From the NCBI GenBank assembly GCA_902516825.1, contig CABXZZ010000008.1, positions 1 through 37,030 on the forward strand: a stretch of 37,030 nt of DNA, written 5' to 3'. Below the pieces are notes generated by a model. The model made no database searches and was not told where the DNA came from. It saw only the letters and a list, made by a program, of their open reading frames with translations. Shown here one piece after another: positions 1,773-29,672 of this stretch (position 1 is its first letter; every line of letters begins with the position of its first letter). The translations under genes were made by a program, and so were the position numbers. The stretch is from an uncultured SAR116 cluster alpha proteobacterium (GTDB lineage: Bacteria; Pseudomonadota; Alphaproteobacteria; Puniceispirillales; Puniceispirillaceae).

Positions 1773-2372
1773 ATGAATGCTATTACGCCAAAGGTGTTTT
1801 CCACTGCTGGTGAATTTCCTCCAGCATTAGTGTTAAATGCGGATTATCGACCGTTGAGCTACTATCCTCTTTCTTTATGGGGGTGGCAGGATGTTGTGAA
1901 GGCTGTTTTCCTCGAACGAGTAGATATTGTCCAGAAATATGAACGCGTAGTATCCTCTCCAAGTTTTCAGATTGAGCTCCCATCAGTAATCGCATTAAAG
2001 GAGTATGTCCATCAGTTTCGTAATCCAGCATTCACACGCTTCAATGTCTTTTTACGAGACGGGTTTTGTTGCCAGTATTGTAGCAAACCGTTCATAGCAA
2101 ATGAATTGACATTCGACCATGTAATTCCGCGCTCTAAAGGCGGCAAAACAAATTGGGAAAATGTGGTAGCAGCCTGCACTAGATGTAATTTAAAGAAAGC
2201 TAACAAAATGCCTAGCAAGGCAGGTGTCAAACCTATCAAACGCCCCATTAGACCAAACACCTATCAACTACAGGAAAATGGTAGAAAATTCCCCCCAAAC
2301 CATCTGCATCATACATGGACAGATTATCTTTACTGGGATGTGGAATTAGAATTGGACAGCTTAAACCATTAA
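1773..2372 (+). CDS. HNH endonuclease family protein
   Basis: This is a 199-residue HNH-family protein of the kind widely conserved as a single chromosomal gene in alphaproteobacteria; its cellular role is not established. The N-terminal part carries the conserved LNADYRPLSYYPLSLW segment (residues 21-36). The nuclease core follows: a Cys pair at 100 and 103 (CQYC), the catalytic FDHVIPRSKGG segment with Asp115-His116, Asn130, and a second Cys pair at 135 and 138 followed by Asn139 (CTRCN). The ββα-metal site and the structural zinc site both look intact. The ATG at 1773 follows an AGAG purine tract. There is no methylase or mobile element next to it, which argues against a restriction or homing role. 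It converges with the coq7 remnant. Confidence 0.88.
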   Translation: MNAITPKVFSTAGEFPPALVLNADYRPLSYYPLSLWGWQDVVKAVFLERVDIVQKYERVVSSPSFQIELPSVIALKEYVHQFRNPAFTRFNVFLRDGFCCQYCSKPFIANELTFDHVIPRSKGGKTNWENVVAACTRCNLKKANKMPSKAGVKPIKRPIRPNTYQLQENGRKFPPNHLHHTWTDYLYWDVELELDSLNH

Positions 2373-2415: not shown

Positions 2416-2925
2416 CTAGATTTTCTCAGCAATCTTAATAGCGGCCTTGTATCCCTTCTGTATCAAAAATTTTAGAATCTGATATGCAGGCACTTTTTCA
2501 CCTCTGCTAGCAACTGTAATATCCTTATACTCAAGCTCCTCATCGCAAAAATGTGCTAATGTATTTAAAAGCTCAGGATCGGTTTCAGTATGCCCAAGCA
2601 CATCGACCTGCTTTTGATAATGACCAACGATTACTTCCTTTACGGCAATCGTGCTCGCCATTGATGCTTTAGGCCCGAGTGCAGCGCTTACCACACCAAG
2701 GCTAAAGCCAGCAAAACTCCATATAGGGTTTAACAAAGAGGGGCGAACCTAATATTAATTTAAGAGTGAGTCGGGGGTCTCAATATGCACTTCCTCTTGT
2801 TCCATAATGTGCTGGATTTTTTCAGCCCCAGGTAGATTTTTTAGCACTGCTAGCTGGCCTTTATGGATTGTTTGTGCTGCATAGTCTGCCCTTAGAAATT
2901 CTGCTAACTGCTGTTTATCTTCCAT
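2416..2925 (-). pseudogene. coq7: COQ7-type demethoxyubiquinone hydroxylase, interrupted by two in-frame stops
   Basis: COQ7 is a diiron hydroxylase of ubiquinone synthesis. The 56 codons from ATG 2925 contain IHKGQLAVL and an EQEEVH segment typical of helices 1-2. Then TAA (2757-2755) and TAG (2751-2749) occur, separated by one Tyr codon. The same frame continues with VRPSLLNPIW, a helix 3 segment (AVKEVIVGHY), DEELEYKD and an APAY-like VPAYQILKFLIQKG, ending at TAG 2416. The whole frame is 170 codons, close to the usual COQ7 length, with no frameshift. Three of the six expected iron ligands appear replaced: helix 1 Glu by Asp14, helix 3 Glu by Lys, and the last His by Tyr. It begins 4 bp after the dsbB stop, so it was probably cotranscribed. 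The best reading is a young pseudogene; two separate peptides or a sequencing error are alternatives. Confidence 0.8.
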
Positions 2926-2929
2926 GATA

Positions 2930-3412
2930 TTATCCCTGTGTTTGTAATAACTTCTTCCAACAGAGGAATGCAAAAGTGGCAATAGAAAAGCTTAAAATAC
3001 TATTCCAACCAGCCATTGATACTCCCAATAGCGACCAAGTAATTTCATCACATTTCACTACTGGCATCTCTAATAACGAGGTTGTAACACGAGAAATTTC
3101 CGAATCAGAGTTCAACTGGTTACTGCAACCTGAAGGGCCAGACAACCACCCTTGTTCCACCCCTACATGATATAACCCAATCAAACTTGTACTTACCGCA
3201 GATAGCGCCATTAATAATAGCATCCAATTTTGTTTTATAGCGACCAGGCCAATAAACGCAATTGCGATAACGACGACGTGTGGCCAGCGTTGCAAAATGC
3301 ATAAATTACAGGGAGGGAGTCCTTCGATAATCTCAAACCAGAACGCTCCTGCTAAAAGGCTAAATGAGGCTAAAGCAGGGAATAACAACGCTTGTTTGTA
3401 GGAAAAATGCAA
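2930..3412 (-). CDS. dsbB: disulfide bond formation protein B
   Basis: DsbB is the inner-membrane oxidoreductase that reoxidises periplasmic DsbA and passes electrons to ubiquinone. The 160-residue product has four hydrophobic segments. The first active pair is in PPCNLCILQRWP (Cys35 and Cys38). The periplasmic pair is Cys96 (GPSGCS) and Cys121 (VVKCDE). The ending WSLLGVSMAGWN is typical of alphaproteobacterial DsbB. All four redox cysteines are present, so it should be active. It lies between the upstream VTT-domain gene (44 bp apart) and the coq7 remnant (4 bp apart) on the same strand, and probably shares a transcript with both. Confidence 0.93.
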   Translation of the reverse strand: MHFSYKQALLFPALASFSLLAGAFWFEIIEGLPPCNLCILQRWPHVVVIAIAFIGLVAIKQNWMLLLMALSAVSTSLIGLYHVGVEQGWLSGPSGCSNQLNSDSEISRVTTSLLEMPVVKCDEITWSLLGVSMAGWNSILSFSIATFAFLCWKKLLQTQG

Positions 3413-28515: not shown

Positions 28516-29433
28516 TTAGAAAAGAGCCTGGAGAAGCAAACCTGCTGTCAGAATAAGGCCACAATTTCGATTGGATCTAAAAACAACTAAAGCTGATTTA
28601 CTGTCTATTTCTGATAGTTTATGTACTTGCCATCCTAAATGAATGGCAGTTCCTATAATACCAATAAGCCAAATATCTAGTCCAAAATGAAGCCATAAAC
28701 CAGCGGACCACAATAGGACCGCAGCTAGATAAAGTGCTGTTATGCCCTTGGTTAGATTGGCTCCAAGTGACAGTGCAGCAGAGCCAATACCAAGCTTACT
28801 GTCATCGTCTTTATCCTGAATTGCATAGATGGTATCATATCCGACGATCCAGCAAGCTGTTCCTGCATATACCAACAACATTGCATCAGTTGGCCAGCTA
28901 TTTGTTGCACTCACCGCACCTAGCAAAATGCCCCATGAAAAAGCAAGTCCAAGAATGACTTGCGGCCATTTAGTAACTCGTTTTGCAAGTGGATAACAGA
29001 TTATTAAAGGGATTGACAATAAGCCCATTATCCACGCTTTAAAAGGGAGTTGTAGCAAAATAAAAAACCCTGCCAGTAGTGTAAAGCCAAGAAATATAAG
29101 CGCAGAACGAACAGATATAGTCCCGGCAGCAAGAGGTCTCATTGCGGTTCTGGAAACTTTTTTATCAATATTACGATCCCATAGGTCATTTATGATACAT
29201 CCTGCAGCACGCATTACGATGGCACCGACTAAAAACCAACACATCAGTTTGGCTGTCTCAATCATCTCATTTTGATGTGCCAAGATAGCCCACCAGCCCG
29301 GTAGTAGTAATAACCACCAACCAATTGGCCTATCTACCCTTGCTATAATAGCATATGGTTGAAGCCAGTTTGGGATGCCCGATAACCACCCATTAGTAGC
29401 GATATCCGTATGCGTTTCGTATGGCAATTTCAT
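28516..29433 (-). CDS. ubiA: 4-hydroxybenzoate octaprenyltransferase
   Basis: UbiA attaches the polyprenyl chain to 4-hydroxybenzoate, the first committed step of ubiquinone synthesis, in the inner membrane. The product has about eight hydrophobic segments. The first aspartate-rich motif is NDLWDRNID (82-90) and the second lies in YAIQDKDDDSKLG (about 220). Other family marks are RPIGWWLLLLPGWW and RPLAAGTISV. I favour ATG 29433 because GGA lies 8 nt before it; ATG 29484 would add 17 basic residues. The resulting 305 residues are normal. It is divergent from rsmE. The presence of UbiA shows the cell makes ubiquinone, which makes the broken coq7 notable. Confidence 0.93.
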   Translation of the reverse strand: MKLPYETHTDIATNGWLSGIPNWLQPYAIIARVDRPIGWWLLLLPGWWAILAHQNEMIETAKLMCWFLVGAIVMRAAGCIINDLWDRNIDKKVSRTAMRPLAAGTISVRSALIFLGFTLLAGFFILLQLPFKAWIMGLLSIPLIICYPLAKRVTKWPQVILGLAFSWGILLGAVSATNSWPTDAMLLVYAGTACWIVGYDTIYAIQDKDDDSKLGIGSAALSLGANLTKGITALYLAAVLLWSAGLWLHFGLDIWLIGIIGTAIHLGWQVHKLSEIDSKSALVVFRSNRNCGLILTAGLLLQALF

Positions 29434-29672
29434 TAAATAATTCCGACTTTTAATTACTCTGGCTTTGCTTTTCAATAAAAACATAACTACATCTATACGA
29501 TAAAAACTGAAAATAGTATTTTTAATGTTTGCAATCTATTTTGGGTATAGCCTTTTAAAAGATGAAAAAAGCATTCCTAATTATGTCTAATTGTTCTTAC
29601 TGTTGTTACTCTTTATAAAGGGTTTATAAGATGAAATACTCCACATTTTTCATATTGGTTAATTGAGTTAAA

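Follow-up and report, generated by a model that had tools for sequence, protein, structure and literature searches.

The window, by which we mean the whole stretch of 37,030 nucleotides analysed here, belongs to a MAG (G000) that is 62% complete and falls in SAR116 by its nearest relatives. It carries a broken coq7 gene, whose lesions and neighbours are listed below together with ubiA.

1773 to 2372, plus strand: HNH endonuclease gene, on the other flank of coq7 from dsbB and tail to tail with coq7
2416 to 2925, minus strand: coq7 pseudogene, a decayed ortholog of canonical alphaproteobacterial Coq7 (from the frame, the Pfam match, identity and branch changes)
2527 to 2529, minus strand: last ligand position, His to Tyr, codon 133 (from alignment)
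2638 to 2640, minus strand: helix-3 ligand position, Glu to Lys, codon 96 (from alignment)
2749 to 2751, minus strand: second in-frame stop, TAG, codon 59
2755 to 2757, minus strand: first in-frame stop, TAA, codon 57
2872 to 2892, minus strand: helix-1 region, with a four-codon in-frame deletion that removes the motif carrying the first Glu ligand (from alignment)
2930 to 3412, minus strand: intact dsbB, immediately upstream of coq7 and on its strand (from family match and open frame)
28516 to 29484, minus strand: ubiA (PF01040), intact (from family match and open frame)

A first-pass annotation of this DNA had described dsbB and ubiA as intact. Indeed, both have open frames and family matches, and open frames were also seen for two cytochrome oxidase subunit genes located elsewhere in the window. 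The intact ubiA points to continued use of the ubiquinone pathway, and the cell presumably makes ubiquinone.

The coq7 frame runs on the minus strand from 2925 to 2416 and keeps a single phase over 170 codons. As had been annotated, it is interrupted by TAA (codon 57) and TAG (codon 59), two codons apart, and thus failed the open-reading-frame test. The Pfam COQ7 model (PF03232) matched it at 144.7 bits (E 1.7e-42; positions 5-169 of 169), compared with 190-229 bits for the canonical Coq7 copies of the order. Three of the six residues that we take to be the iron-ligand set of COQ7 are lost: the first Glu is deleted, one Glu is replaced by Lys and the last His by Tyr. The latter two changes had been correctly read in the first-pass annotation, as Glu to Lys in helix 3 (codon 96) and as ExxH to ExxY at the last motif (codon 133). 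The proposed change of the helix-1 Glu into Asp was a mis-registration. Alignment with the congeners showed that this Asp is the one normally preceding the His-Ala-Gly-Glu motif, and that the Glu itself lies in the four-codon deletion.

All six ligands were kept in 75 of the 80 aligned rows, which include the reference and duplicate loci. The five other rows were the window, its own copy (L001), one G110 gene that appears as two loci, and the first part of a G046 copy with a frameshift. No relative combining an intact frame with the Lys and Tyr substitutions was found among the 80 rows; the pattern occurred only in the window and in L001.

The fused frame was 72-74% identical to the canonical Coq7 of three congeners (G007, G002 and G006), and only 25-31% identical to an intact, divergent COQ7-like paralog from another family of the order. 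It is therefore a canonical Coq7 ortholog in decay, and was rejected as a copy of the divergent paralog, an assignment that would have overturned the pseudogene reading. The paralog itself was observed in L032-L039 (for example L033:4608-5180), in one family of the SAR116 order and often alongside canonical Coq7. Its full-length matches scored 109-132 bits and, in the alignment, retained the iron ligands. The single paralog scanned against the NCBIfam COQ7 model reached 40.9 for a cutoff of 180, and a canonical congener copy was also below this cutoff, at 82. As G042 (93% complete) displayed no ubiquinone FMO above 87 bits, the paralog might serve another ring position.

Codon changes were then counted on the window branch, with the three intact congeners as the yardstick. 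Among the 77 changed or unchanged codons where these congeners agree, 20 were nonsynonymously changed (stops included) and 11 synonymously. On the branch of the sister G007, 1 nonsynonymous and 19 synonymous changes were found (Fisher 2.3e-5 between the two branches), under slightly different rules, since agreement of the three congeners was used for the window branch and agreement between the window and G002 for the G007 branch. Neighbouring genes on the window branch had 9 synonymous and 8 nonsynonymous changes for VTT, 7 and 6 for dsbB, and 18 and 10 for ChaC; nonsynonymous changes outnumbered synonymous ones in none of eight neighbouring genes. The pairwise dN/dS of coq7 against G007 was 0.18, for neighbours at 0.03-0.20 (dsbB, VTT, GluQ and ChaC at 0.16-0.20), and the excess in the window is seen only against the usual value of coq7 itself, 0.01 between G007 and G002. 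Because the pairwise value falls within the range of the neighbours, the decay would be recent, or would have followed a period of normal constraint.

The window coq7 is thus broken, a canonical ortholog that has become a pseudogene. The stops, the deletion and the loss of three of six ligands support the loss of catalysis suggested in the first-pass annotation. With a source MAG that is 62% complete, the stops might be assembly or sequencing errors in the contig. This is very improbable, as the deletion, the two ligand changes and the excess of amino-acid changes would all need to be errors too, and no comparable excess over synonymous changes is seen in the eight neighbouring genes.

The HNH-coq7 neighbourhood is old. 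The gene order HNH-coq7-dsbB is common to the coq7-bearing congeners (L044-L046) and to the outgroups L052, L053, L110 and L054. The nearest records to the HNH gene (L044-L051, four SAR116-cluster genomes among them) were 82-93% identical to it. When the locus was compared among close relatives, coq7 was found intact in three congeners and its site empty in five (G005, G008, G009, G003 and AH-326-N16), where the flanking order is kept and coq7 was not found. The spacing between the HNH and dsbB matches was 82-177 bases in the empty-site congeners, compared with 577-606 in the three coq7-bearing ones and 563 in the window. In a genus tree built from nine syntenic proteins, G000 grouped with the coq7-bearing G007 and G006 (100/100), and the five genomes without coq7 formed a separate clade (100/100). 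Since the window and the empty-site genomes lie in separate clades, the genus has seen at least two losses or breakdowns of coq7. Adjacency of HNH and coq7, as at 1773-2925 of the window, was also observed in Pelagibacteraceae and other alphaproteobacterial records.

In eukaryotes, COQ9 is a partner of COQ7. All ten genomes of the genus retain a COQ9-family match, including those without Coq7 (G000:C22:9481-10032 and relatives); no COQ9 was found in G057, a genome that lacks Coq7 and carries the flavin enzyme described below as FMO2. Retention of COQ9 would be compatible with a role for the broken frame as a functional pseudoenzyme, or a read-through product, acting as a structural partner in the ubiquinone complex; the frame is also open from the stops to its end and its family is still recognisable. 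We give this idea very little credence. The gene has accumulated two stops of different kinds and the helix-1 deletion, amino-acid change is raised over the gene, its ligand pattern is seen in no aligned relative, and the site is without a gene in five congeners.

The first-pass annotation had proposed that C6 hydroxylation was taken over by a flavin enzyme of the UbiF, UbiM or UbiL type. A search for ubiquinone FMO in 61 relatives revealed a second FMO (FMO2) in many coq7-less genomes, including G000. There, an intact copy lies on another contig than coq7 (G000:C26:643-1863), with an open frame of 406 amino acids; the stops reported inside its profile match fit the gene's own end. The G000 protein scored 256 bits against TIGR01988, above the cutoff of 224.65. 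For all five FMO2 scanned, the best NCBIfam model was NF005691 (PRK07494), at 328-357 bits (347 for G000), below a cutoff of 459 that was itself passed by only 4 of the 289 genomes of the class sample. FMO2 contains the FAD-binding and GD-type motifs, as GGGHSG, GADGANSVVR and GEAAHKLPPIGAQGFN.

The position of FMO2 among related enzymes was assessed with a quick maximum-likelihood tree with SH-aLRT support, in which R. capsulatus UbiL1 itself is absent. L223 yielded no FMO sequence. From 117 extracted FMO, three duplicates were removed to give 114, and 24 more were omitted as near-duplicates or badly bounded, leaving 90 rows; seven of these 24 were class-wide hits (L233, L240, L243, L247, L249, L250 and L252). 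The SAR116 FMO2 formed a clade of their own (100). With a support of 99, this clade grouped with five class-wide hits and with the second FMO found in Gemmobacter, HTCC2255, Oceaniovalibus and Neomegalonema, all of them inside a wider clade that comprises 37 rows (SH-aLRT 99). UbiM (100), the ordinary alphaproteobacterial UbiL (96), the SAR116 FMO1 (99) and E. coli UbiF, UbiH and UbiI all fell outside this wider clade.

UbiM was rejected as the replacement enzyme, with FMO2 scores of 154-179 bits against the UbiM model (NF006593, cutoff 420) and a position outside the UbiM clade; UbiF was ruled out by model scores and by the tree. Only the UbiL part of the earlier proposal thus stands, in the form of a divergent subtype. 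The Gemmobacter FMO displayed pair identities of 30, 45-49 and 30-35%, mirroring the matrix published for UbiL1 and UbiL2 of R. capsulatus (31, 46 and 32). For this reason the FMO2 clade was taken as UbiL1-type, and the G000 enzyme as a putative divergent UbiL subtype of that kind, about 34% identical to the Gemmobacter and HTCC2255 enzymes, the nearest named UbiL1-like proteins compared. By its clade membership, FMO2 would hydroxylate C6 of demethoxyubiquinone.

The distribution of the two enzymes was analysed in 136 genomes of the order, with thresholds of at least 326 bits for FMO2 and at least 190 bits for canonical Coq7. Seven more genomes at the search threshold scored 207-221 bits and were treated as lacking FMO2; G000 was not counted as having canonical Coq7, nor was G046, with its frameshifted coq7, while G110, with a coq7 containing a stop, was counted as having it. 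FMO2 was present in 16 of the 136 genomes. Canonical Coq7 was found in 4 of these 16, compared with 88 of the 120 without FMO2 (Fisher 2.5e-4). Among the 43 best genomes (completeness of at least 90%, contamination of at most 5%), none of the 3 with FMO2 had a COQ7-family match, compared with 40 of the 40 without it (Fisher 8e-5), these 40 including G048, with the divergent paralog only, and G046, with the frameshifted canonical copy. Both FMO2 and a six-ligand Coq7 occur in four genomes, G117, G070, G078 and G098 (56-79% complete); FMO2 therefore does not always displace Coq7. Neither canonical Coq7 nor FMO2 was detected in 32 of the 136 genomes, many of them incomplete. In the class sample of 289 genomes, a COQ7 match was missing from 15 of the 16 genomes with a placed FMO in the wider clade, and present in 5 of the 6 with a placed FMO in the ordinary UbiL clade (Fisher 0.0013), a count covering 22 of the 29 class-wide hits. 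G367 combined an FMO of the wider clade with a low-scoring COQ7 match (E 3.5e-42). The order and class counts share ancestry and do not represent independent events.

Two more damaged coq7 genes were noticed in the order. In G110 (UBA2954; L291:1389-1892 and L055), coq7 also has an in-frame stop, located at the fourth ligand codon, together with a two-residue deletion, and no FMO2 was found in this 77% complete genome. In G046 (99% complete, without FMO2), the canonical coq7 is split over two frames (L042:4388-4872), through either decay or assembly error.

Some genomes gave negative results. FMO2 was searched and not found in G008 (95% complete, 7% contaminated), which has an empty coq7 site; a 109-amino-acid piece at the end of contig C44 in this contaminated genome is unlike FMO2 and was rejected as a second FMO and left uncounted. 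Neither Coq7 nor FMO2 was found in G001 (73% complete) and G004 (64% complete). The case of G008 would fit with a dead coq7 whose function had passed to an existing UbiL-like FMO1 broadened to C6, FMO2 then having another role. A ubiquinone FMO hit of 229-243 bits was indeed present in all nine congeners, with or without coq7 (six were placed as FMO1), and one study documents broad regioselectivity for UbiL and UbiM enzymes (PMC5069965). This alternative leaves unexplained both the mutual avoidance of FMO2 and Coq7 and the grouping of FMO2 with the UbiL1-like clade, and FMO1 was searched in the 62% complete G000 and not found. We regard it as unlikely.

The origin of the G000 FMO2 was also considered. 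G003, G005 and G009 have a common FMO2 neighbourhood, and the G000 gene lies elsewhere; on C15, which carries the ortholog of the nucleoside hydrolase gene found beside FMO2 in these three congeners, no FMO2 was detected at the contig end. In the FMO2 gene tree, G000 grouped with G005 and G009 (97/94), hence within the FMO2 of the other clade, against its grouping with G007 and G006 in the genus tree (100/100). The arrangement keeping G003, G005 and G009 together, as expected from vertical descent, was not rejected (p-AU 0.083). The GC content of FMO2 is 0.337 in G000 and 0.334-0.341 in the other clade, which is itself at 0.352-0.364. The first 10 kb of C26, which hold FMO2, are at 0.35-0.37 and the remainder at 0.42-0.44 (0.395 for the whole contig). 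Two genes near FMO2 were 84-88% identical to G009 and G008; for one of them, a CobW gene, G007 and G002 gave no match at E 1e-30. Whole-contig composition speaks against a mis-binned contig from the other clade: the tetranucleotide correlation of C26 with the window is 0.94, compared with 0.86-0.88 between C26 and the other clade. Given the GC step inside it, C26 may contain an imported stretch or be a chimeric contig. FMO2 was likely transferred into the G000 lineage from the low-GC sister clade, with a chimeric contig as a possible alternative to import.

Altogether, we consider it probable that the UbiL1-type FMO2 encoded on another contig has replaced the coq7 pseudogene of this genome in the C6 hydroxylation of demethoxyubiquinone. 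Our confidence was slightly lowered by the GC step in C26 and by the pairwise dN/dS. In a genome 62% complete, an intact coq7 elsewhere is possible, which limits this explanation. Redundancy probably came first, with FMO2 and Coq7 together in one genome, since this combination occurs in the order. Freed from selection, coq7 would next have undergone the deletion, the ligand changes and the stops that give its state in the window. The end point would be an emptied site, as is already the case in the sister clade.

A broader reading can be offered tentatively, and we hold it to be possible rather than likely: the di-iron enzyme would have been swapped repeatedly for a flavin enzyme in SAR116, set off here by the transfer of FMO2 from the low-GC sister clade. 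The stages would be Coq7 alone, both enzymes, FMO2 with a dead coq7, and FMO2 with an empty site, all represented in living genomes. Iron sparing in surface waters may have driven this swap, which is conjecture. With a pseudogene beside an intact sister, one can trace how redundancy gives way to relaxation and then to deletion. Moreover, related genomes with either FMO2 or Coq7 permit a direct test of the C6 enzyme and of its link to iron supply. In a literature search, no report of coq7 loss in SAR116 appeared among the titles and the first lines of abstracts.

By identity and by its position between HNH and dsbB, the window frame is an ortholog of the di-iron demethoxyubiquinone hydroxylase COQ7/CLK-1, from which it differs by two stops, a deletion and the loss of three of six ligands. 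The Coq7 of R. rubrum, when expressed in E. coli, hydroxylates C6 alone (PMC5069965). FMO2 is presumed to catalyse the same reaction as E. coli UbiF, C6 hydroxylation by a flavin enzyme, but the two are only 23-25% identical and separate in the tree. UbiM (NF006593), the generalist FMO of Neisseria, is of the same superfamily, but FMO2 is below its cutoff and outside its clade. UbiM also occurs in genomes with few hydroxylases (PMC5069965).

The closest parallel is R. capsulatus UbiL1. The UbiN paper presents it as a demonstrated C6 hydroxylase, which allows R. rubrum lacking coq7 to grow aerobically again and whose knockout accumulates DMQ10, and cautions that position and phylogeny can disagree (PMC10626278). 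The SAR116 FMO2 belong with the Rhodobacterales second FMO (support of 99), where we also place UbiL1 since Gemmobacter shows its identity pattern, but they form a clade of their own, at only about 34% identity to the UbiL1-like enzymes compared. Rhodobacter and Paracoccus have a two-UbiL repertoire without Coq7, according to PMC5069965. Similarly, 12 of the 16 FMO2 carriers of the order have a broken Coq7 or none, but four carriers retain Coq7 and a coq7 pseudogene is still visible here. Replacement of Coq7 by a second FMO is known from Rhodobacter as a finished state, and here intermediate states are found within one order. The proposal of the first-pass annotation is largely right, and the present locus would be a further case of this flavin-for-iron replacement, caught at the pseudogene stage.
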